From: a virus
Direction: 5' to 3' (one strand)
IMG/VR virus record: IMGVR_UViG_3300022540_000472
Location: 1-64,000 of that record
DNA length: 64,000 nucleotides
Of the stretch, positions 5,184-42,931 are shown piece by piece (positions within the stretch are counted from its first letter, which is position 1; each line of letters begins with the position of its first letter). Below the pieces are notes generated by a model that was given only the letters and a program-made list of their open reading frames with translations, was not told where the DNA came from and searched no databases. Position numbers and translations under genes: made by a program.

Positions 5184-6115
5184 TCGGTTGGGAAACCAAT
5201 CAAAGAGTTTTAAAGTTTAGCCGCATGGGGTAGATAACCTCTGGTAACAGAGCGAAAGGGCAGTGATCTAACTATAGCTGTCGCCATTAGGATTTATCCG
5301 AAGTGGACATCCATGCAAGCCAAACCTCCCCAGCGATGGGGTCTTCACTTACAAGTGCGGTGGAGATAACTATGAAGTAAGTGCATAGGAAAGAGTTGTT
5401 ATTTAAGGGCCTGCAAAGGTAACCCAAGTAACAAAAGAGTAACAGGTGGTGCTGACCTCTATGTTAAACCAGCTTGCGAATAGGTAGGGTAAATGGTAGG
5501 AATGTTGTTCGAGGTGCAAACAAGAGCTTCATTCCAAACTAGTATGTATTCCCTTAGGGGTGCATATGTTAGGTTTTTGGGTTGATTCGTCAATCCATAT
5601 AAATCTTGAAAGTTGACTGAGTTCCGGTAGGATAAAGGTATTTGATGTAGTGTATTTTGTAACTCAAAAGGTTACGAAGCATTAGTCCGCACACATCGAG
5701 GTTAGTTATGATATAGCTCATTGTAGAGCATCTGCTTTTGGTGCAGAAGGCGGTTGGTTCAAATCCAACTATCTTTTAAAAAACGCAAAGTTGCGGACAG
5801 TAGTAAGTTAAAATGGCTTAATCCTTCACACTTATGTGAATGAAGGCATCCGAAACTCGCGAGGCGGAGGATGTTAAAGTAGAGTCGCACGGAAGACGTT
5901 AGCGCGTCATTGCAGTCCTAATAAGATTGACGGTAGATAAAACTTTGAGTAGCTTGCTATGATATGAGAATCGCCACTCATTAAAAAAGGCAGTCATGTT
6001 TGTAAACTCTGTTTGACGGAGTGGATAAGAGTAGAACTCTAGGTGTCGCAACTGATGAGATAATGACTCGAAAGTACAAATGGTAAAGCTATAATCTCAG
6101 GCTTACAACAACTAA
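5184..6115 (+). ncRNA. Large ornate structured RNA, GOLLD/ROOL-like
   Basis: About 930 nt without a coding frame, behind its own strong promoter. Nested helices are easy to find: GCATGG (5223-5228)/CCATGC (5311-5316) encloses TAGAT/ATCTA and a CTCTG-GTAA-CAGAG hairpin; CACTTAC (5346-5352)/GTAAGTG (5377-5383); TGAGAT (6056-6061)/ATCTCA (6094-6099). A 7-bp helix GTCCGCA (5685-5691)/TGCGGAC (5792-5798) encloses a tRNA-like domain. Size, phage setting and embedded tRNA resemble GOLLD RNAs, which are known from phages and lake metagenomes. Family assignment is by appearance only. The bS21 gene starts about 16 nt after the end, so the RNA may also be the leader of that message. Confidence 0.65.
5707..5776 (+). 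tRNA. tRNA-Gln(UUG)-like domain inside RNA B
   Basis: D-arm GCTC/GAGC, anticodon arm CTGC-TTTTGGT-GCAG (anticodon TTG) and T-arm GTTGG-TTCAAAT-CCAAC are intact. The acceptor stem has only about 4-5 pairs and no CCA is encoded. A perfect 7-bp outer helix locks it into the larger RNA. It may be a structural tRNA mimic rather than a working tRNA. Confidence 0.7.
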
Positions 6116-16350: not shown

Positions 16351-16426
16351 GTTCAGTTAGCTCAGTGGTAGAGCCGAAGACTCTAAATCTTTGTGGTCGA
16401 GGGTTCGAACCCCTCACTGAACACCA
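16351..16426 (+). tRNA. tRNA with amber anticodon (CUA)
   Basis: Acceptor GTTCAGT/ACTGAAC, D-arm GCTC/GAGC, anticodon arm GAAGA-CTCTAAA-TCTTT (anticodon CTA), T-arm GAGGG/CCCTC and encoded CCA. The cloverleaf is complete. CTA reads the UAG stop codon. The loop is the same as that of E. coli supF. The amino acid cannot be told. Confidence 0.85.
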
Positions 16427-19817: not shown

Positions 19818-20351
19818 ATGACAGATGAAATCATGGGAGTTACTCCAAAACTCCTACCAATACTTACGTTCCCAAATGAGAGACTTCGTATAGTTGCTGA
19901 AAAGGTAACAGAATTTGATGAAGAACTTAAACAATTAGTTCTTGATATGATTATCACAATGTCTGAAAATAACGGTATCGGTTTAGCTGCACCACAAGTT
20001 GGTATTAATAAACGAGTTATTGTTATTGCACTTAGTGATACTCCTCTCGCTTTAATCAATCCAATCATCATAGCATCGGAAGGTGATATAACATCTGAAG
20101 AAGGATGCCTATCCGTTCCTGGATATTACGAAACAATTAAACGCCACAGTAACATTGTAGTTAGCTTTCAAACATTAGAAGGTGAAGTTAAGGAATCAAC
20201 TGCAGCAGGAATGTTATCAACTGTTGTTCAGCACGAAATTGATCACCTTAATGGAAAACTATTTGTTGACTATCTTTCCCCCTTAAAACAAAATAGGGCA
20301 AGAGAAAAATCAAAAAAGAATGCGAAGAAAATGCTTAAACTCGTGAAATAG
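19818..20351 (+). CDS. def: Peptide deformylase
   Basis: 177 aa. All three motifs are present: GIGLAAPQ (53-60), EGCLS (95-99, metal ligand C97) and QHEIDHL (138-144, ligands H139 and H143 with E140). It removes the formyl group from nascent proteins using Fe2+. Phage versions are known in cyanophages and vibriophages, usually shorter at the C-terminus. This one has a near full-length, basic C-terminal helix. It ends with TAG. Confidence 0.93.
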   Translation: MTDEIMGVTPKLLPILTFPNERLRIVAEKVTEFDEELKQLVLDMIITMSENNGIGLAAPQVGINKRVIVIALSDTPLALINPIIIASEGDITSEEGCLSVPGYYETIKRHSNIVVSFQTLEGEVKESTAAGMLSTVVQHEIDHLNGKLFVDYLSPLKQNRAREKSKKNAKKMLKLVK

Positions 20352-20740: not shown

Positions 20741-21301
20741 ATGGATTTAGAGCAATATAAGAAAGATGCAATACGCACAGAAAGTCAAATAGATAGTATA
20801 AAAATTAATACAACCATGCTTATTAATGTGTTAGCAATGTACATTAGTGCTGGACAAATGCTTGACCAAGTTAAAAAGCACATTTTTTATGGAAAAGAAT
20901 ATAAGATTGATGAATTCAATCACGCATATATGACTGTAAGAGATTCACTTGAAGATGTTGCTGGTGTACCATTATCAGGAGACCTTAATGAAGAGTTAGT
21001 CGATTTCGACCCACGCGTATTCCATGCTATCGTTGGAATCGCAACTGAATCAACTGAATTATGTGAAGCGTTATATGATACCCTTCTTGGTAAAAAGGAA
21101 ATGGATATTGTAAACCTTCTTGAAGAGAATGGTGACATACATTGGTATCAAGCTATTATGATGGATGCACTTGGTGGTGATTGGGAAAAGATTTTCAATA
21201 CAAACATCGAAAAGCTACGTGCTCGCTACCCAGAAAAATTTACAAGTGATAAAGCAATCAATCGTGATTTGGAGACTGAGAGAGAAATCTTAGAAAAATA
21301 A
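20741..21301 (+). CDS. MazG-like nucleotide pyrophosphohydrolase
   Basis: 186 aa, all helical. ATESTELCEAL (residues about 104-114) fits the ExxE metal motif and NGDIHWY near 131-137 the second acidic helix of the all-alpha NTP pyrophosphohydrolases. These cleave (d)NTPs or ppGpp-like nucleotides. It is one of three MazG-type genes in the window, and overlaps the following gene by one base. Confidence 0.6.
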   Translation: MDLEQYKKDAIRTESQIDSIKINTTMLINVLAMYISAGQMLDQVKKHIFYGKEYKIDEFNHAYMTVRDSLEDVAGVPLSGDLNEELVDFDPRVFHAIVGIATESTELCEALYDTLLGKKEMDIVNLLEENGDIHWYQAIMMDALGGDWEKIFNTNIEKLRARYPEKFTSDKAINRDLETEREILEK

Positions 21302-22323: not shown

Positions 22324-22352
22324 TTGACAAGTTGGTTAATTTGTTATATTAT
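22324..22352 (+). promoter_or_regulatory. Sigma70-type promoter of the PrkA operon
   Basis: TTGACA, 17-nt spacer, TATTAT, 39 nt before the prkA start. Confidence 0.8.
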
Positions 22353-22390
22353 ATACCCATCAAAGCTAATTACAATTAAAGAGGAAGGTT

Positions 22391-24343
22391 ATGAGCATTT
22401 TTGACAATTACCAAAAACGTTATACCAAGAAACAAGCTGAAGAGATGTCAATACAAGAATATCTCGATTTATGCAAAAAAGACCCATCATCATATGCGAC
22501 TGCTTCAGAACGCATGTTAGATGCTATCGGGGAACCTAAAATTATCGATACACGAAATGACCTTCGTTTAAGTCGCATCTTCACGAATCGTAAAGTTCGT
22601 ACATATCCAACGTTTAATGAATTCTATGGTATGGAAGATACTATTGAACAAATCGTCGCATATTTCAAATATGCCGCACAAGGGTTAGAAGAAAAGAAAC
22701 AAATTCTTTATCTTTTAGGTCCAGTTGGTGGTGGTAAGTCATCTATTGCTGAACGATTAAAAGAATTAATTGAAACCGTTCCGTTCTATACACTTAAAGC
22801 ACACAACGAAGCAACAGGTGAAGATGAATTTTCACCTATATTTGAATCACCACTTGGTTTATTTAATTTAGGTGAAGATGCTGGCATTCTTAGTGAAGAA
22901 TATGGTATTGCTGAACGATATCTTGGTGTAGTTCCTTCTCCTTGGGCAATAAAACGTCTTGATGAGATGGGTGGTGATATCACAAAATTCTCTGTTGTTA
23001 AATTGTGGCCTTCTAAATTGCAGCAAATTGGTGTTACTAAAACAGAACCTGGTGATGAAAACAATCAAGACATTTCCGCATTGGTTGGTAAAACTGAATT
23101 GCGTAAGTTAGAATATTATGCTCAAGACGACCCAGATGCGTATAGCTACAGTGGTGGTTTAAACTTAACTACTCAAGGTATGCTTGAATTCGTTGAAATG
23201 TTTAAAGCACCAATTAAAATGTTACACCCTCTTCTTACAGCAACACAAGAAGGTAACTACAATGGTACAGAACAGTTAGGTGCTATGCCTTATCAAGGTA
23301 TTATTTTGGCCCACTCAAACGAATCAGAGTGGCAGAAATTCCGTAACAATTCTGATAACGAAGCATTTCTTGATCGTGTGTACATTGTAAAAGTTCCTTA
23401 CTGCTTACGTGTTACTGAAGAAGTTGAAATTTATGAAAAATTGTTAAAGCATTCAGAATTGGCTAAAGCTAAATGCGCTCCTGGTACTTTGGATATGATG
23501 GCACAATTTTCAATTCTTTCACGATTGGTTGATCCTGAAAATTCAAACTTCTTTTCAAAAATGGAAATATATGATGGTAAGAATTTAAAAGATATCGATC
23601 CTAACGCTAAATCACTTCAGGAGTATCGTGACTTTGCTGGTGTAAATGAAGGTATGGATGGTTTCTCTACTCGTGCTGCATATAAGATTCTTTCAAAAGT
23701 ATTTAACTTTGATTCATCAGAAGTAGCAGCTAACCCTGTTCACTTGATGCACGTATTAAGAAAGCAAATTAAGCAAGAACAATACAAGCCAGAAATTGAA
23801 GAACAGTACGAAATGTTTGTAAATGGAATCCTTGGACCAAAATATGCTGAATTCATCGGTGATGAAATTCAAAAAGCATATCTTGAATCATATAGTGAAT
23901 ACGGCCAGAACTTATTCGACCGTTATATTCAGTATGCTGATTATTGGATTCAGGATTCAGACTTCCGTGATCCAGATACTGGCGAACAGTTTGATCGTGA
24001 ATCATTAGATGCTGAATTATCGAAGATTGAAAAACCTGCTCACATTTCAAATCCAAAAGATTTCCGAAATGAAGTTGTAAATTTTGTTCTTCGTGCAAAG
24101 GCAAATAATGAAGGCAACAATCCTGACTGGACAAGTTATGAAAAACTTCGTGTTGTTATCGAAAAGAAAATGTTTGCTAACACAGAAGAATTAATGCCTA
24201 TAATTTCATTCAACCAGAAAGCATCAAGGGATGAAGCTGATAAACATAATGATTTTGTAAATCGTATGGTAAGCCGTGGTTACACGAAGAAGCAAGTTCA
24301 GTTGTTAGTAGAATGGTATATGCGTTTTAAAGGTAACAACTAA
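22391..24343 (+). CDS. prkA: PrkA/YeaG serine protein kinase with AAA+ domain
   Basis: 650 aa, the same length as E. coli YeaG (644 aa). The AAA+ part has Walker A GPVGGGKSS at 110-118 and the family's FYGMEDTIEQIV and QILYLLGP lead-in. The C-terminal half continues to the end without truncation. In bacteria PrkA is a starvation and sporulation protein, described as a kinase and also as an ATP-dependent protease. It is first in an operon with its usual partners YeaH and SpoVR, with a private promoter. Intact length and motifs argue that it is functional. Confidence 0.93.
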   Translation: MSIFDNYQKRYTKKQAEEMSIQEYLDLCKKDPSSYATASERMLDAIGEPKIIDTRNDLRLSRIFTNRKVRTYPTFNEFYGMEDTIEQIVAYFKYAAQGLEEKKQILYLLGPVGGGKSSIAERLKELIETVPFYTLKAHNEATGEDEFSPIFESPLGLFNLGEDAGILSEEYGIAERYLGVVPSPWAIKRLDEMGGDITKFSVVKLWPSKLQQIGVTKTEPGDENNQDISALVGKTELRKLEYYAQDDPDAYSYSGGLNLTTQGMLEFVEMFKAPIKMLHPLLTATQEGNYNGTEQLGAMPYQGIILAHSNESEWQKFRNNSDNEAFLDRVYIVKVPYCLRVTEEVEIYEKLLKHSELAKAKCAPGTLDMMAQFSILSRLVDPENSNFFSKMEIYDGKNLKDIDPNAKSLQEYRDFAGVNEGMDGFSTRAAYKILSKVFNFDSSEVAANPVHLMHVLRKQIKQEQYKPEIEEQYEMFVNGILGPKYAEFIGDEIQKAYLESYSEYGQNLFDRYIQYADYWIQDSDFRDPDTGEQFDRESLDAELSKIEKPAHISNPKDFRNEVVNFVLRAKANNEGNNPDWTSYEKLRVVIEKKMFANTEELMPIISFNQKASRDEADKHNDFVNRMVSRGYTKKQVQLLVEWYMRFKGNN

Positions 24344-24375
24344 TACTGTAAATACTAAAACAAACGGAGATTAGT

Positions 24376-25677
24376 GTGGCTCATATTATCATAGACCGTA
24401 GAAAGAATGCAAAAAACAAAAGCTCGGTTAATAGACAAAAGTTTATTAAGCGAGTGAAAGGACAAGTGCGAGATGCTGTTAAAGAAGTTATCCGAGATGG
24501 AAAAATTGAGGATATCATTGGAGATAGTGGAAAGAAAGTAAATGTCCCAATTAAAGATTTGAATGAACCAAACTTTCATTACGGTGAAGGTGGAATGACA
24601 GACAAAGTTCTTCCAGGTAACCACCACTACAATGAAGGTGATCGTATAGATCGTCCTGAAGGTGGTGAAGGTGGTGGCGGACCAAAAGGTTCCAAAGATG
24701 GTGAAGATGAAGATGAATTCAGTTTCCACTTAACCAAGGAAGAATTCCTTGACTTATTCTTTGAAGACTTAGAATTGCCTGACCTCCTTAAAAAGGATTT
24801 AGCGACTGTTGATGAGTATGCTTACAGCCGAGCAGGATTTTCAACTGATGGTAACCCTGCTCGGTTAAATGTTCTTCGTTCAATGAAGCAAGCGAAAGCT
24901 CGTAAGTTCGCTCTTCGTTCTCCAAAGAAGAAAAAGCTACGTGTTCTTGAAGAAGAACTTAAACAGTTAGATATTACGATTGAAAATTATCAATCAAAAG
25001 GACAAGATTGTTCAATTGAACAAGACCGTAAAAAGGTTGTAGTCGAAGAAATTAAAATACTCAAAAGAAAGATTAAAGCAATTCCATTTATAGATGATAT
25101 TGACCTTCGTTACAATAGATGGGAAAAACATCCAATACCTGTTACACAAGCTGTTATGTTCTGTATTATGGACGTATCTGGTAGTATGGGAGAATGGGAA
25201 AAGGAAATGTCAAAACGTTTCTTTATGCTTTTGTATTTATTCTTAACAAAAAATTACAAACGTGTTGAGCTTGTATTCATTCGTCACCACTCAATTGCTA
25301 AAGAAGTTGATGAAGATGAATTCTTTCACTCAAGAGAATCAGGTGGCACTGTAGTATCACCTGCTTTAGAACTTATGTATAATATTGTACAGCAGCGCTA
25401 TCCCAGAAATTCTTGGAACATATATGCTTGTCAGGCATCAGATGGAGATAACTGGACACCTGATTGTGCAGTCACTCAAAATGTACTAACAAAGAAGATT
25501 CTCGGTATGGTTCAACACTATGCATATGTTGAGATTGATAGAAGGGGAGATGATAGCGACTTGTGGCCATATTATGAGGATGTAAAATTATCACATGATA
25601 ATTTTGATATGTCTCTAATTACAGATGCTACCGATATCTATCCTGTCTTCCGTAAATTATTTGAAAAAAAGAAGTGA
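24376..25677 (+). CDS. yeaH: YeaH/YhbH (DUF444) von Willebrand A-type protein
   Basis: 433 aa, like E. coli YeaH (427 aa). The N-terminus is basic, residues about 85-115 are Gly/Asp/Glu-rich, and the VWA metal site DVSGSMG is at 266-272, followed by SGGTVVSPAL. It starts at GTG with CGGAG upstream. In bacteria it is co-transcribed with prkA and its biochemical role is unclear; it is presumed to bind a partner through the VWA domain. Confidence 0.92.
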   Translation: MAHIIIDRRKNAKNKSSVNRQKFIKRVKGQVRDAVKEVIRDGKIEDIIGDSGKKVNVPIKDLNEPNFHYGEGGMTDKVLPGNHHYNEGDRIDRPEGGEGGGGPKGSKDGEDEDEFSFHLTKEEFLDLFFEDLELPDLLKKDLATVDEYAYSRAGFSTDGNPARLNVLRSMKQAKARKFALRSPKKKKLRVLEEELKQLDITIENYQSKGQDCSIEQDRKKVVVEEIKILKRKIKAIPFIDDIDLRYNRWEKHPIPVTQAVMFCIMDVSGSMGEWEKEMSKRFFMLLYLFLTKNYKRVELVFIRHHSIAKEVDEDEFFHSRESGGTVVSPALELMYNIVQQRYPRNSWNIYACQASDGDNWTPDCAVTQNVLTKKILGMVQHYAYVEIDRRGDDSDLWPYYEDVKLSHDNFDMSLITDATDIYPVFRKLFEKKK

Positions 25678-25684
25678 GGTTATT

Positions 25685-27232
25685 GTGAACGAACGCAAAC
25701 CAATATCTACATGTAGTGAATGGACATTTGAACTCATTGAAGAGTACTATAATGAAATTGAACGTATTGCTCGGGACAAATTCAACATTAGCTACTACCC
25801 AAATCAACTTGAAATAATCTCAAGTGAACAAATGCTTGATGCATACGCATCTGTTGCTATGCCAATTATGTACAACCATTGGTCGTTTGGAAAGCAATTC
25901 GTATACCAACATGAACATTACAAACGTGGTTATATGGGATTGGCATATGAAGTTGTAATTAACTCAAATCCATGTATCTCTTACTTAATGGAAGAGAACA
26001 CGATGACAATGCAAGCGCTTGTAACTGCTCATGCTGCATTTGGACATAATTCATTCTTTAAAAATAACTACCTATTCAAACAATGGACTGATGCTGAAGC
26101 TATCATAGATTATCTTACATTTGCTAAAAAATATATTGCTGATTGTGAAGAGAAGCATGGAATTGATGAAGTAGAAGAAGTTCTTGATTCATGTCATGCG
26201 TTACAACATTATGGTGTTGATAAGTACAAACGTCCACCACAATTATCAATAGCTGAAGAAAAGGCTAGACAAAAAGAACGCAACGAATACTTACAGTCAC
26301 AGTTGAACGAATTGTGGAATACTGTACCGACATCAAAGACGAAAGACAGTAAAGAGACAGAACCAAGTTTCCCTTCAGAGCCACAAGAGAATGTTCTTTA
26401 CTTTATTGAAAAGAATGCTCCGAACATGCCAACATGGAAACGAGAGTTGATTCGTATCGTTCGTAAGATGGCACAATACTTCTATCCTCAAATGCAAACA
26501 AAATTGATGAATGAAGGTTGGGCGACTTTTTGGCACTACACGCTAATTCACGAATTGTATGAAGAAGGACTTGTTACTGATGGGTTTATGCTTGAGTTTT
26601 ATGATAACCACACAGCAGTTGTAGCACAATTACCGTACTGGCACAAACATTACAATGGCATTAATGTGTATGCTCTTGGTTTTGCAATGTATCAAGACAT
26701 TAAACGAATTTGTATGGACCCAACTGAAGAAGACAAAGAGTGGTTCCCTGAGTTTGCTGGAAATGGTGATTGGAATAAAACTGTTCATTGGGCGATGGAA
26801 AACTTTAAAGATGAAAGTTTTGTTATGCAATTTCTTTCACCAAAGGTAATTCGTGACTTTAGGCTGTTTTCTTTTCTTGATGATGATAAAGATCCTAAAC
26901 TTGAGATTTCAGCGATTCATGATAAAAATGGATATAAGAAGATCCGTGAAAAATTATCAAACCAATATAATGTTATTAATTATATCCCTGATATTCAAGT
27001 AACCAACGTTGATCGTTGGGGAGATCGTTCATTAACGCTTCGGCACTATATGTTCAATAGACAACCGTTGGATGAGAAGTCAACAACAGAAGTTTTGAAA
27101 CATTTACACAGATTGTGGGGATTTGGTGTTCACCTTGAATCCACAGATGACCGCGATAAAATCCGTGCTATATACGAAATATCTGGCGATGATGCAATAA
27201 TAGATGTTTTTATGGACGATAGCGACGAATGA
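25685..27232 (+). CDS. spoVR: SpoVR-like protein (YcgB family)
   Basis: 515 aa, matching E. coli YcgB (510 aa). Typical features include WTFELIEEYYNEIERIA near the N-terminus, YYPNQLEIISSEQMLDAYAS, and a central EGWATFWHY-type motif. SpoVR acts in spore cortex formation in Bacillus and is stress-linked in Gram-negatives. The frame is open into the yeaH end, but GTG at 25685 with GAGG upstream gives the normal N-terminus. Completes the PrkA-YeaH-SpoVR set. Confidence 0.92.
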   Translation: MNERKPISTCSEWTFELIEEYYNEIERIARDKFNISYYPNQLEIISSEQMLDAYASVAMPIMYNHWSFGKQFVYQHEHYKRGYMGLAYEVVINSNPCISYLMEENTMTMQALVTAHAAFGHNSFFKNNYLFKQWTDAEAIIDYLTFAKKYIADCEEKHGIDEVEEVLDSCHALQHYGVDKYKRPPQLSIAEEKARQKERNEYLQSQLNELWNTVPTSKTKDSKETEPSFPSEPQENVLYFIEKNAPNMPTWKRELIRIVRKMAQYFYPQMQTKLMNEGWATFWHYTLIHELYEEGLVTDGFMLEFYDNHTAVVAQLPYWHKHYNGINVYALGFAMYQDIKRICMDPTEEDKEWFPEFAGNGDWNKTVHWAMENFKDESFVMQFLSPKVIRDFRLFSFLDDDKDPKLEISAIHDKNGYKKIREKLSNQYNVINYIPDIQVTNVDRWGDRSLTLRHYMFNRQPLDEKSTTEVLKHLHRLWGFGVHLESTDDRDKIRAIYEISGDDAIIDVFMDDSDE

Positions 27233-27233
27233 G

Positions 27234-27241
27234 CATAAATA
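27234..27241 (+). promoter_or_regulatory. T4-late-like promoter box
   Basis: CATAAATA just after the spoVR stop, 14 nt before the next ATG. Confidence 0.4.
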
Positions 27242-27254
27242 TTTGGAGATGAAT

Positions 27255-27386
27255 ATGAAAAAAGATCAGGAATACGAAGAACTTGTTAGCTGGGTTCCGG
27301 AGGACGGATACGGCGAAGAAGACGAAGAAATACGCACCAAGGACGATGCGCTTGAAGGGATTGACCAAACAGAAACTGGATGTTAA
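27255..27386 (+). CDS. Small acidic protein
   Basis: 43 aa, strongly acidic, behind GGAGATG. The terminator follows 2 nt after its stop. No function recognised. Confidence 0.5.
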   Translation: MKKDQEYEELVSWVPEDGYGEEDEEIRTKDDALEGIDQTETGC

Positions 27387-27387
27387 C

Positions 27388-27424
27388 AAAGGGGAATAAC
27401 AATAAAATGTTATTCCCCTTTTTG
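27388..27424 (+). terminator. Rho-independent terminator
   Basis: A 14-bp perfect stem (27388-27401 with 27409-27422) containing GGGGAATAAC, followed by T. Ends the PrkA operon. Confidence 0.93.
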
Positions 27425-27491: not shown

Positions 27492-28265
27492 ATGGCTAGA
27501 AAGAAAAACCGCGGCTCTAACAGAGTTCGCAAACAAATAAAATCTCTAGAATTGCAATTAATAGAAAATGGGAGAGCAATGGACCAAGGACCACAGAAAA
27601 AGAAAAAATGGACAAAGCATGATATACATGCAGTCAAACCACTAACCGCTACACAAGAAGAAATGTTTCATTCCTTCTATCAAGGCCAGCACATATGTGC
27701 TCATGGGTCAGCAGGTACAGGAAAAACCTTTCTTGCCTTATATCTCGCAATTAACGAAGTCATTGAACAAGGTATAGGTGCCTCTCGAATTATTATAGTT
27801 CGTTCGCCAGTACAGTTACGTGAAATCGGACATATGCCAGGTGATCTTGAAGAAAAGATTTCTTTCTTTGAAACACCATATAAAGATATTATGGCTGATT
27901 TGTTTAACCGTTCAGCAACGTACGATAATATGAAAGAGGCTGGAATCATTGAATTCATGCCTACAACATTCATACGTGGCCTAACGTGGGACGATGCGAT
28001 AGTTATAGTGGACGAAGGACAAAATATGTCGTTTCATGAAATCAACTCAATTATGACACGATTAGGTGAGAATTCACGTATAATCTTTACTGGTGATTTA
28101 CCACAATCAGATCTAACAAGAAGAAATGATATTAGTGGGATGGGACAGTTTATGAAGATTGCTGAAAATATGAAAGATTTTAGCAGCGTTGGATTCACAA
28201 AACACGATATTGTAAGGAGTAATTTTGTTAAGAGATGGATTATAGCATCTGAAGAAGTTGCATAA
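27492..28265 (+). CDS. phoH: PhoH-like ATPase
   Basis: 257 aa. Walker A GSAGTGKT is at 72-79 and Walker B IVIVDEGQNM near 175-184, with RSPVQLREIGHMPGDLEEK and FTGDLPQSD between and after. PhoH is common in marine phages; its role is uncertain, with RNA-related functions suggested. The first 45 residues are basic and phage-specific. An ACTAAATA box lies about 55 nt upstream and a terminator follows. Confidence 0.92.
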   Translation: MARKKNRGSNRVRKQIKSLELQLIENGRAMDQGPQKKKKWTKHDIHAVKPLTATQEEMFHSFYQGQHICAHGSAGTGKTFLALYLAINEVIEQGIGASRIIIVRSPVQLREIGHMPGDLEEKISFFETPYKDIMADLFNRSATYDNMKEAGIIEFMPTTFIRGLTWDDAIVIVDEGQNMSFHEINSIMTRLGENSRIIFTGDLPQSDLTRRNDISGMGQFMKIAENMKDFSSVGFTKHDIVRSNFVKRWIIASEEVA

Positions 28266-30873: not shown

Positions 30874-30908
30874 AGCCGTATAATTAATTTTGTACGGCTA
30901 TTTTTTTT
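30871..30908 (+). terminator. Terminator hairpin overlapping a promoter
   Basis: AATAGCCGTA (30871-30880) pairs with TACGGCTATT (30893-30902), then a T8 run. It would end the exported-protein transcript. For a transcript starting at the overlapping promoter only part of the 5' arm is included. Confidence 0.75.
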
Positions 30909-30919
30909 GGAGAATAAAA

Positions 30920-31714
30920 ATGAAATCTGATAATCTGGGAGACAGGATGAAGGGATACGAATCTGTATCCAAAACAAAACTACTTAATCGTACTCCTGTT
31001 CTAATTCGTATTGATGGTAAAGCATTTCACACTTGGACGAAAGTATTACCAAGTGTAGATGAGAGTCTACAAAATGACCCATTCAGTGAAGTCATGCATA
31101 AATGTATGGTTGCTACAACACAACAGCTTGTTGAGAATACACAAAATGCTGTTATAGGTTATACACAATCTGACGAAATTACAATTCTATTAAATGATTG
31201 GAAAACATTAACTACTGACCAGTGGTTTGGCAACAGTGTCCAAAAGATGGCATCTGTTTCTGCAAGTATGGCAACTGCTTATTTCAATCGTGCTTGGGAA
31301 CGCATGTTCTGGAGTGACAAAATCCCCCCTGCGTTATTTGATGCGCGCGTGTTTAATATTCCCAAAGAGGAGGTGACTAACAATTTCATCTGGCGTCAAC
31401 AAGACGCAACGCGCAATTCAATTAACATGTATGCTCGTCACTTTTTCTCGCATAAAGAAATGCAAGGCAAGAGTACGAGTGAAGTTCAAGATATGTTAAT
31501 GCTTAAAAAAGGTGTTAACTGGAATGACTTGGAAACTTGGAAACGACGTGGCACTTGTGTGACACGTGGTGGACACTATGAATTAAAAGGTGGCCCTAAC
31601 GAAAAATGGATTGCCAATGCACCACATAGTACCATTATCATAAACGAAGAAATTCCTATTTTTACAAAGGATAGAGAATATATTGAACAGTTCTTGGTTA
31701 CAGATGAAGAATGA
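30920..31714 (+). CDS. Thg1-like tRNA(His) guanylyltransferase
   Basis: 264 aa. LIRIDGKAFHTWTK (28-41) with D32 and YTQSDEITILL (81-91) with D85/E86 match the metal-binding motifs of the Thg1/Thg1-like 3'-5' polymerases. These add G-1 to tRNA-His or repair 5'-truncated tRNAs. Phage copies are known in T4-like phages. The ATG at 30920 has GGAG upstream and removes a 10-residue extension. Here it may repair tRNAs damaged by host nucleases or mature the phage tRNAs. Confidence 0.88.
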   Translation: MKSDNLGDRMKGYESVSKTKLLNRTPVLIRIDGKAFHTWTKVLPSVDESLQNDPFSEVMHKCMVATTQQLVENTQNAVIGYTQSDEITILLNDWKTLTTDQWFGNSVQKMASVSASMATAYFNRAWERMFWSDKIPPALFDARVFNIPKEEVTNNFIWRQQDATRNSINMYARHFFSHKEMQGKSTSEVQDMLMLKKGVNWNDLETWKRRGTCVTRGGHYELKGGPNEKWIANAPHSTIIINEEIPIFTKDREYIEQFLVTDEE

Positions 31715-33840: not shown

Positions 33841-34052
33841 TGAAATTGTCAACGATTATAAAGCATGTAGTACCACCAACTTGGGCCATCTCTTGTATTG
33901 TCGGTGGTATGCATTTGCTTGAGTGGTTAATTCTTGTAGAGCCACGATGGACATTAATATTAATGCCTCTAGTCTTTATCGTGTGGATAGGTACGATGTT
34001 TTTAGGACATCACATAATAGGAAAGGTATACAAATATTTTTATGGAAATTAA
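33840..34052 (+). CDS. Small membrane protein
   Basis: 70 aa with two hydrophobic segments (residues about 12-30 and 37-58). No family recognised. Confidence 0.55.
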   Translation: MKLSTIIKHVVPPTWAISCIVGGMHLLEWLILVEPRWTLILMPLVFIVWIGTMFLGHHIIGKVYKYFYGN

Positions 34053-34509
34053 ATTAGGTAATGAATATCCTGCAGGCACTTTATCAAACCTTGCGGCTCA
34101 TAAATTCACCTTTCGTGGTGTCGAGTGCAATAGTATGGAAGGATTACTACAAGGATTAAAATTTAAAGGCGTTGAAATGCAACGAGAGATTTGTACGCTT
34201 ACTGGAACTCACGCAAAGAAGTCTGGTGCCAGAAAGAATTGGCAACAGACACAAACTCTTTGGTGGGATGGAGAACCTATCAAACGCAAATCAGATGAAT
34301 ACCAAGAATTGTTAGATGAAGCATACGATTGTTTGTTTCGTCAAAACGAAAAAGCTCGTACGGCTTTACTTGCAACAAACAAAGCCGTGTTGAAACATTC
34401 AATTGGTCGTCGTAAAGCGAATGAAACTGTTTTAACACAACAAGAGTTTTGTTCTCGTTTAACGAAGATGCGTGAATTAATTAAATCAGAAGAATTTTTG
34501 GAGTTTTAA
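34042..34509 (+). CDS. NADAR/YbiA-family protein
   Basis: 155 aa. LSNLAAHKFTFRGVECNSMEGLLQGLKFKG is the YbiA/DUF1768 signature: SNL..HPF.FDG..C.S.E..LQ..KF. C-terminal motifs such as AVLKHSIGRR and TVLTQQEFC also fit. YbiA cleaves riboflavin precursors. Other NADAR proteins remove ADP-ribose from guanine in DNA and counter DarT-type ADP-ribosylation, including in phage. An anti-defence role is therefore plausible. Confidence 0.85.
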   Translation: MEIKLGNEYPAGTLSNLAAHKFTFRGVECNSMEGLLQGLKFKGVEMQREICTLTGTHAKKSGARKNWQQTQTLWWDGEPIKRKSDEYQELLDEAYDCLFRQNEKARTALLATNKAVLKHSIGRRKANETVLTQQEFCSRLTKMRELIKSEEFLEF

Positions 34510-42069: not shown

Positions 42070-42507
42070 ATGTTCAAAGGATTGATATTTTTGTTGTTTT
42101 TGTTTAGTACCTCTGCAGTTGCGGTTGATTACGCAGCTATGGTTAAACAAGAAGGTAATGCTCTTGTTCTATCTGTCGGAGGAGAACGTATTGCATCTAT
42201 TGATGAATATGGACTCAAGTCGAAGAAAGTACAACAACAAATACTTGATAGAGCTGTAAAGCAAGTAGATTTTTGTGCTACAAAAGGTCGGTGGGGTAGT
42301 TCTCTCGCTGATGAAGCAAAAGATAAAATCGGTAATGTAAAATTTCATATAAATCGTTTATATGAGATGACAAAAGATATCAAGATTCCACGATATATGA
42401 TCGTTGATAATGAACGAATGATACGAGAAGCATACAGACATGGTTATAAAGACCATTATCAATTTGGAGTGCAAGTTATAAAGGATTGTCTAGTTAATGG
42501 ATTTTAA
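42070..42507 (+). CDS. Secreted or periplasmic hypothetical protein
   Basis: 145 aa with a signal peptide (residues 1-18, cleavage after AVA). The mature part is helical and basic with two cysteines (near residues 71 and 141). AGGGAGAAGG ribosome site. No family recognised. Confidence 0.6.
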   Translation: MFKGLIFLLFLFSTSAVAVDYAAMVKQEGNALVLSVGGERIASIDEYGLKSKKVQQQILDRAVKQVDFCATKGRWGSSLADEAKDKIGNVKFHINRLYEMTKDIKIPRYMIVDNERMIREAYRHGYKDHYQFGVQVIKDCLVNGF

Positions 42508-42510
42508 TTG

Positions 42511-42539
42511 TTGACTTTTTAGTCTCTTTGTTATATAAT
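42511..42539 (+). promoter_or_regulatory. Sigma70-type promoter of tmRNA
   Basis: TTGACT, 17-nt spacer, TATAAT. A TATAAATA box follows at 42541-42548, so both promoter classes may act here. Confidence 0.82.
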
Positions 42540-42545
42540 TTATAA

Positions 42546-42888
42546 ATAGATATATCATTGTATGAAAGTAATGAAATAGGAAGGTAACACGCGGGTTCGA
42601 ATCCCGCCTTCTCCACCAAAAGCATTTTATGCGGCAGCAAAGTTTTAGTTTAGCGACTGAAAAATGGTTAGAATGAAAAAATTAGCCCGCCTAACCAGAA
42701 TGCTTCTGATGGGGATGACTTGGAATCGACTATCGACTGAAAGATTACTGGACAGTGCGTCAAGTTGACCGACGTAAAAAGGGCAAAAAACTATAATTGC
42801 AAATGACGAAAGTTATGCATATGCAATGGCTGCCTAAACAGCAATAGCCATTACGGGGTTGATAAAACCTGGCAACAGAATTATCATT
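42546..42888 (+). ncRNA. ssrA: Circularly permuted (two-piece) tmRNA
   Basis: The acceptor piece comes first: T-arm GCGGG-TTCGAAT-CCCGC (42591-42607), CTTCTCC and ACCA ending at 42618. After a 92-nt linker with its own hairpins, the 5' acceptor strand GGGGATG (42711-42717) and D-region CTTGGAATCGAC follow. The pairing keeps the G3-U70 pair needed for alanylation. The tag frame 42799-42837 encodes ANDESYAYAMAA and a stop. No T-arm follows the tag, so the gene is permuted and must be cut into two RNAs. It needs RNase P for the 5' end of the coding piece. Confidence 0.92.
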
Positions 42889-42889
42889 A

Positions 42890-42912
42890 GGGTAGCTTCG
42901 GCTGCCCTTTTT
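42890..42912 (+). terminator. Rho-independent terminator of tmRNA
   Basis: GGGTAGC (42890-42896) and GCTGCCC (42901-42907) with a TTCG loop and T5. Confidence 0.92.
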
Positions 42913-42931
42913 ATTGCCTGTCATTTCTTCA

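Follow-up and report, generated by a model that had tools for sequence, protein, structure and literature searches.

Bacterial operons and the phage locus

PrkA, YeaH (DUF444) and SpoVR are widespread stress proteins of bacteria, for which the joint biochemistry is unsettled and the label of PrkA as a kinase is doubtful. The same three families are encoded by the prkA operon of Rhizobium etli, by yeaGH plus ycgB of Escherichia coli, and by prkA, yhbH and spoVR of Bacillus subtilis. Work on the (p)ppGpp response of R. etli used reverse transcription-PCR to confirm that its three genes form an operon (PMC3188799). The joint action of YeaG and YeaH slows the metabolism of E. coli in nitrogen starvation, as a 'metabolic brake' (PMC10954441), and YeaG, described as a eukaryote-like kinase, raises the output of rpoS (PMC4664914). 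The pure PrkA of Bacillus anthracis had negligible kinase and protease activity in vitro, in an assay that did not include SpoVR (PMC13001217). Here we describe a complete set of the three genes in a viral DNA of 64,000 bases (the window), corresponding to positions 1 to 64,000 of the 92,113-base IMG/VR record IMGVR_UViG_3300022540_000472.

The three genes are adjacent on the plus strand (22391-27232), in the order of the Pseudomonadota operon. PrkA/YeaG (22391-24343), an AAA+ ATPase of 650 residues, matched NF011999 over residues 1-647 with 1175 bits (cut-off, 576), and both Pfam domains, AAA_PrkA and the PrkA C-terminal 'kinase' domain, were detected. Its Walker A motif is GPVGGGKSS, including K116 and S117. 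The residues G110, K116, S117, R329 and R378 are invariant, the Walker A motif and the conserved arginines being kept even in relatives at 25-30% identity, and the residues invariant over all lineages are largely those of AAA+ proteins (P-loop and several arginines). YeaH/DUF444 (24376-25677; 433 residues, GTG start) matched PF04285 over positions 1-418 of 418 with 551 bits and NF003707 with 586 bits (cut-off, 396). In its AlphaFold2 model (predicted local distance difference test, pLDDT, 80) the C-terminal domain, residues about 256-432, has the von Willebrand factor A (VWA) fold (Foldseek E = 1e-5; Z = 14.8-16.8 with the VIA aligner), and its metal ion-dependent adhesion site (MIDAS) is complete, consisting of D266-x-S268-x-S270, T325 and D356, and conserved in both lineages including the Thermus type described below. 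SpoVR/YcgB (25685-27232; 515 residues, GTG start) matched PF04293 with 564 bits, SpoVR_C, and NF008737 with 844 bits (cut-off, 679). Judged from the nucleotide sequence, its start is most likely the GTG at 25685, which is preceded by GAGG at 25676-25679, and not the listed ATG at 25625, which would overlap yeaH by 53 bases. The matches above cut-off bear out the claim of the original prediction that all three proteins are full length and keep their key motifs. A solved homologue was found for PrkA (9xip, E = 1e-54), and for YeaH and SpoVR sequence searches gave no match among solved structures.

Besides gene order and motifs, the window shares with the bacterial operons a PrkA of 62-71% identity, while YeaH (about 42-53%) and SpoVR (about 49-65%) are more diverged. 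The phage trio differs from the bacterial one in adjoining genes for MazG and PhoH, and the phage relatives of the window alone carry inteins.

The trio forms a single apparent transcription unit, with a plausible ribosome-binding site ahead of each gene. The promoter-like sequence TTGACA-17-TATTAT (22324-22352, plus strand), ending 38 bases before the start of prkA, is the best of the region with 11 of 12 matches. Such sites numbered 31 in the region against 32 expected by chance from shuffled DNA, so that the promoter call rests mainly on position. Downstream, a hairpin of 14 pairs, of which 5 are G-C, followed by a run of T (27388-27421, plus strand), resembles an intrinsic terminator; the hairpin is clear, yet the total of 5 in the region equals that by chance (4.7). 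One promoter and one terminator, as had been proposed, are thus represented by a best site and a clear hairpin, in a region where the number of sites is that of random DNA. An acidic open reading frame (ORF) of 43 residues (27255-27386, plus strand) is located between spoVR and the terminator, and no counterpart was seen in the loci of relatives.

The original prediction that the operon is carried by a phage was upheld. The window encodes a T4-like major head protein (212-1348) on the same contig as the trio, together with class Ia ribonucleotide reductase, topoisomerase II, NAD ligase, thymidylate synthase, DnaB helicase and RNA ligase, indicating that the record is of a phage; a permuted tmRNA is in agreement. 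The G+C content of the trio matches that of the surrounding DNA.

Occurrence, descent and co-retention of the trio

Searches of IMG/VR gave 74 viral loci, 40 with the PrkA bait and 34 with the SpoVR bait. Among 50 carrier records, PrkA was present in 50, DUF444 in 50 and SpoVR in 48, always in the order PrkA-YeaH-SpoVR; the two carriers without SpoVR are contigs that end within or just after yeaH. Since PrkA and SpoVR were used as baits and DUF444 never was, its presence in 50 of 50 is an unbiased figure. The trio was also found in three metagenomic phages of 635-642 kb, and in a metagenomic phage of 595 kb the three genes are represented, together, by distant relatives. In the 642-kb phage LR756502 (LR756502.1; loci L221 and L222), about 240 kb separate spoVR from prkA-yeaH, and all three are kept. 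The search of viral databases for co-occurrence therefore indicated that the trio is recurrent in large phages and not unique to the window. For comparison, such a PrkA was found in 49 of 200 genomes of Pseudomonadota.

Some cultured phages belong to the same picture. The Ralstonia jumbo phage RsoM2USA (344 kb) encodes SpoVR as ORF28 and, two ORFs further on, PrkA as ORF30; a DUF444 gene would fit in the space between, ORF29 is not listed and an operon is not discussed (PMC8504454). The Thermus phages phiYS40, TMA, phiLo, MN1 and Lalka8 carry vWA, SpoVR and PrkA-like proteins together, keeping the MIDAS, the Walker A motif and the HxxGH and EGxA motifs of SpoVR. These are of a much diverged type, in the order vWA-SpoVR-PrkA and with only about 22-28% identity to the window (up to 35% in the VWA part), and most likely represent separate acquisitions. 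Among annotated phages, the only matches beyond the Thermus and the large metagenomic phages were a Bacillus phage with a lone DUF444-like protein and a doubtful Enterobacter record. The latter, Enterobacter phage LAU1 (locus L077, 1-3308), was rejected as an independent case, its yeaG-yeaH being located at the very end of a 'complete' record of 30.8 kb and probably representing the host flank of a prophage.

In a tree of the joined PrkA, YeaH and SpoVR sequences (96 rows), a highly supported cluster unites the window, 16 further phage loci and one row of Acidithiobacillus, and the trees of single proteins gave nearly the same group. This row, the trio of Acidithiobacillus sp. HP-2 (L219), could reflect transfer from phage to bacterium or a long-branch effect; a group made up of phages alone was not excluded by the approximately unbiased (AU) test for one clade (p = 0.465), and no such transfer is therefore claimed. 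The six phage/bacterium changes initially counted on the tree were not accepted as six transfers, because the short contigs L012, L018, L044 and L053, nested among bacteria, are possibly misclassified. When only confident phages are counted, at least three switches remain on the tree, and gene flow between phages and bacteria has therefore probably taken place more than once. The phylogeny, proposed as a means of finding the donor, thus identified a phage group and no donor species that can be named: the nearest bacterial PrkAs, from beta- and gammaproteobacteria, are about 70% identical. Uptake of the trio by large T4-like phages, with Pseudomonadota as their probable hosts, was probably an old event.

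In most members of the window group, about 17 loci, MazG is encoded upstream and PhoH downstream of the trio, with HNH, Thg1 and others nearby. In the window these are the genes for a MazG-like pyrophosphatase (20741-21301, plus strand), conserved at 14 phage loci including the window, and for a PhoH-like ATPase (27492-28265, plus strand), conserved at 15 loci including the window at a median of 138 bp after spoVR. In close phage pairs with finite synonymous divergence, the ratio of non-synonymous to synonymous substitution (dN/dS) was 0.046-0.112, indicating strong purifying selection; several pairs, including the window and its nearest relatives, were saturated for some genes. Together with DUF444 in every carrier and the split 642-kb phage, these values support the earlier claim that the whole set is kept, and indicate that selection keeps it. 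The phage copies are in this sense a natural experiment, in which the trio is selected together even when genomically split.

The base rate among related phages was estimated from capsid proteins. The window's own major head protein, topoisomerase and ligase were of no use as baits, each finding no relative or one, and the major capsid proteins of five carriers in its group were used instead, giving 80 sister loci. Of 24 sister records examined, SpoVR was detected only in three carriers already known, and it was absent from records of 350, 190, 183, 174 and 160 kb, which may be incomplete. Because sister records of up to 350 kb are without SpoVR, the module looks accessory in these phages. As to the possibility that the trio is common and neutral in relatives, it proved common, but neither neutral nor universal. 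The head protein of the window itself, with 378 residues, is shorter than those of the carriers (472-503 residues), profile positions 105-177 being absent.

Putative metal site of SpoVR and its inteins

The AlphaFold2 model of SpoVR is good (pLDDT, 89.6; predicted template modelling score, 0.86), and its fold appears to resemble that of the gluzincin zinc peptidases. All 50 VIA matches listed were gluzincins or complexes thereof, covering families M1, M2 (angiotensin-converting enzyme, ACE), M32 and M61, with Z of 6.8-10.6 over SpoVR residues about 10-410, many of them being ACE2 complexes. The invariant pair H116....H121 is followed by N-E277-G-x-A, so that a His pair and an EGxA glutamate are shared with gluzincins, and H116, H121 and E277, together with H65, E89 and H284, form a putative metal site. 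The SpoVR of Thermus type keeps H116, G120, H121, E277, G278 and A280 within HVYGH-like and (H/N)EGxA motifs, and H65 and H284 differ in some of these proteins. The gluzincin-like reading gains weight because a single clan fills the VIA list and because this set of H..H...EGxA residues is conserved. Foldseek against viral models gave one significant match, a protein of 617 residues, the length of phiLo SpoVR. DUF885 (HExxPGH, EGWA) was considered as the nearest motif analogue of SpoVR, a likeness by motif alone for which only one sequence was found.

An independent indication came from inteins. In ten different phage spoVR genes, or 15 loci when near-copies are counted (ORFs of L010, L034, L036, L046, L063, L069, L072, L073, L075 and L223), in-frame inserts of 125-513 residues were found with the ends of inteins, namely Cys at the start and HN or GN before Cys, Ser or Thr at the junction, and several of them matched Pfam Intein_splicing or LAGLIDADG. 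The insertion points are seven, after residues 54 (approximate by one or two residues), 105, 117, 121, 271, 278 and 280 in window numbering, and all are located in or adjoining three motifs, those of H65, H116/H121 and E277. In one lineage (the L036 family) an intein also separates K116 and S117 within the P-loop of PrkA. No intein was detected in about 100 bacterial prkA-yeaH-spoVR operons, and no paper in the literature library searched joins intein and SpoVR. Inteins favour conserved active-site codons, and the insertion sites in SpoVR are thus independent support for the three motifs as a functional site. The original observation is sound, less unique than first supposed, and in one respect richer, as the diverse intein-marked phage variants point to a putative, testable active site of SpoVR. 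If SpoVR indeed binds metal there, H116, H121 and E277 are concrete residues to be mutated in any laboratory bacterium.

Proposed function and alternative explanations

A parallel for the trio as a machine is offered by the MoxR AAA+/VWA systems, NorQ/NorD and RavA/ViaA, which combine an AAA+ ATPase, a MIDAS-bearing VWA partner and a dedicated metalloprotein client, the NorQ/NorD pair remodelling its own (PMC13036017). PrkA differs in that its AAA+ family (PF08298) is a separate one, in which the C-terminal domain is distinctive. By this analogy, PrkA would be a ring-forming AAA+ motor and YeaH its MIDAS-bearing VWA adaptor, and the pair would thus work like the MoxR/VWA machines, acting on or with SpoVR as does NorQ/NorD on its client. 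SpoVR would be the dedicated partner, a protein with a metal site and a gluzincin-like fold, and the motor would serve to activate, remodel or load it. The best explanation of the locus, of which this machine is part and to which we give a probability of roughly 0.42, is a bona fide trio of old uptake that serves as an accessory fitness module: supplied by the phage beside MazG and PhoH, it may bring the host into, or keep it in, a stress-adapted state of low metabolism, and would plausibly keep the infected cell viable during a long lytic cycle. The starved-but-productive host of the original prediction fits, by analogy, the brake of E. coli YeaGH and the MazG/PhoH neighbourhood. The carrier phages offer a deletion system in which the benefit of the module can be measured as burst or latency in starved hosts. 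Recurrence in large phages suggests that they make use of a host protein machine that is driven by ATP and poorly understood. A broader proposal, that large phages repeatedly recruited an unrecognised class of machine in which an AAA+/VWA motor drives a gluzincin-derived, non-HExxH metalloenzyme to reprogramme the host, with inteins marking its active site, is tentative and on balance doubtful.

Several observations weigh against the best explanation. The profile similarity of PrkA to RavA and Lon is weak, that to RavA being a short match of only about 60 residues (E = 1.5e-4). For the SpoVR model, Foldseek against the PDB gave no match under E 0.05, the profile did not match M1 peptidases, and the VIA aligner warns that Z of about 10 may arise by chance in helical proteins. 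The catalytic glutamate of HExxH is absent, being replaced by A or V (HAxxGH or HVYGH), and in the window type one more residue separates the His pair; SpoVR is therefore not assigned as a gluzincin peptidase. The trio of Thermus phage Lalka8 is located between portal/minor head genes and terminase, a context not suggestive of metabolism.

Among the alternatives, SpoVR could be an active metallopeptidase or hydrolase with PrkA-YeaH as unfoldase and adaptor, the three forming a protease-like machine, driven by ATP, for the destruction of particular proteins of the host or the phage. The gluzincin-like fold, the H..H...EGxA residues and the weak Lon-like P-loop similarity of PrkA are in favour, and the conserved E89 and H65 could act as an alternative general base. 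The replacement of the HExxH glutamate argues against such a machine, as does the lack of proteolysis by B. anthracis PrkA alone, albeit in the assay without SpoVR, and we consider it rather unlikely. Of the proteolysis suggested in the original prediction, the part concerning PrkA itself is doubtful, and the metallopeptidase-like fold of SpoVR leaves the idea some ground. Work specific to the phage, such as counter-defence or virion and terminase assembly, in place of host starvation physiology, would agree with the accessory distribution, as expected of arms-race genes, and with the reordered, much diverged trios of Thermus phages, among which the position between portal and TerL in Lalka8 may point to an assembly role. 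Against the PADLOC defence models, however, only a weak P-loop match of PrkA was obtained (E = 0.0045), YeaH and SpoVR giving none and the trio none above background; moreover, the bacterial operon order and a PrkA identity of 51-72% are kept, and the window group has MazG and PhoH and no structural genes as neighbours. This alternative is improbable.

Rewiring of the host by phosphorylation, with PrkA as a Ser/Thr kinase, follows the historical annotation, the match to the Pfam C-terminal 'kinase' domain and the description of E. coli YeaG. The enzyme from B. anthracis was without detectable kinase activity and the positions that never vary between lineages are for the most part typical of AAA+ proteins, so that this part of the original prediction is poorly supported and the kinase explanation is very improbable. 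That host DNA was picked up recently and neutrally, or that the contig is a misassembled one from a host, is already contradicted: the bacterial gene order and the 70% identity of PrkA to beta/gammaproteobacterial proteins would suit it, and the yeaGH of LAU1 looks like just such a host flank, but the copy in the window clusters with those of phages in a conserved phage synteny, dN/dS is low in close phage pairs, and the G+C content and the head protein on the same contig also speak against it.

Other genes of the window were recorded in parallel. They include a phage peptide deformylase (19818-20351), a Thg1-like tRNA-His guanylyltransferase (30890-31714) and a T4 Gp30.3-like protein with a weak NADAR match (34042-34509). 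The tRNA with CTA anticodon (16351-16426), called tRNA-Pyl by ARAGORN, is a possible amber suppressor. Recoding of TAG, prompted by this suppressor-type tRNA, was considered and dropped: TAG is the stop of 6 of 58 long open frames, few but ordinary ORFs, and no clear read-through was seen. The permuted tmRNA (42507-42928; RF04321, 113 bits, and alpha_tmRNA) carries the tag ANDESYAYAMAA. A GOLLD RNA, a giant ornate noncoding RNA, is located at 5642-6103 (RF02032, 178.9 bits), and a tRNA-Gln (5707-5777) sits inside it.

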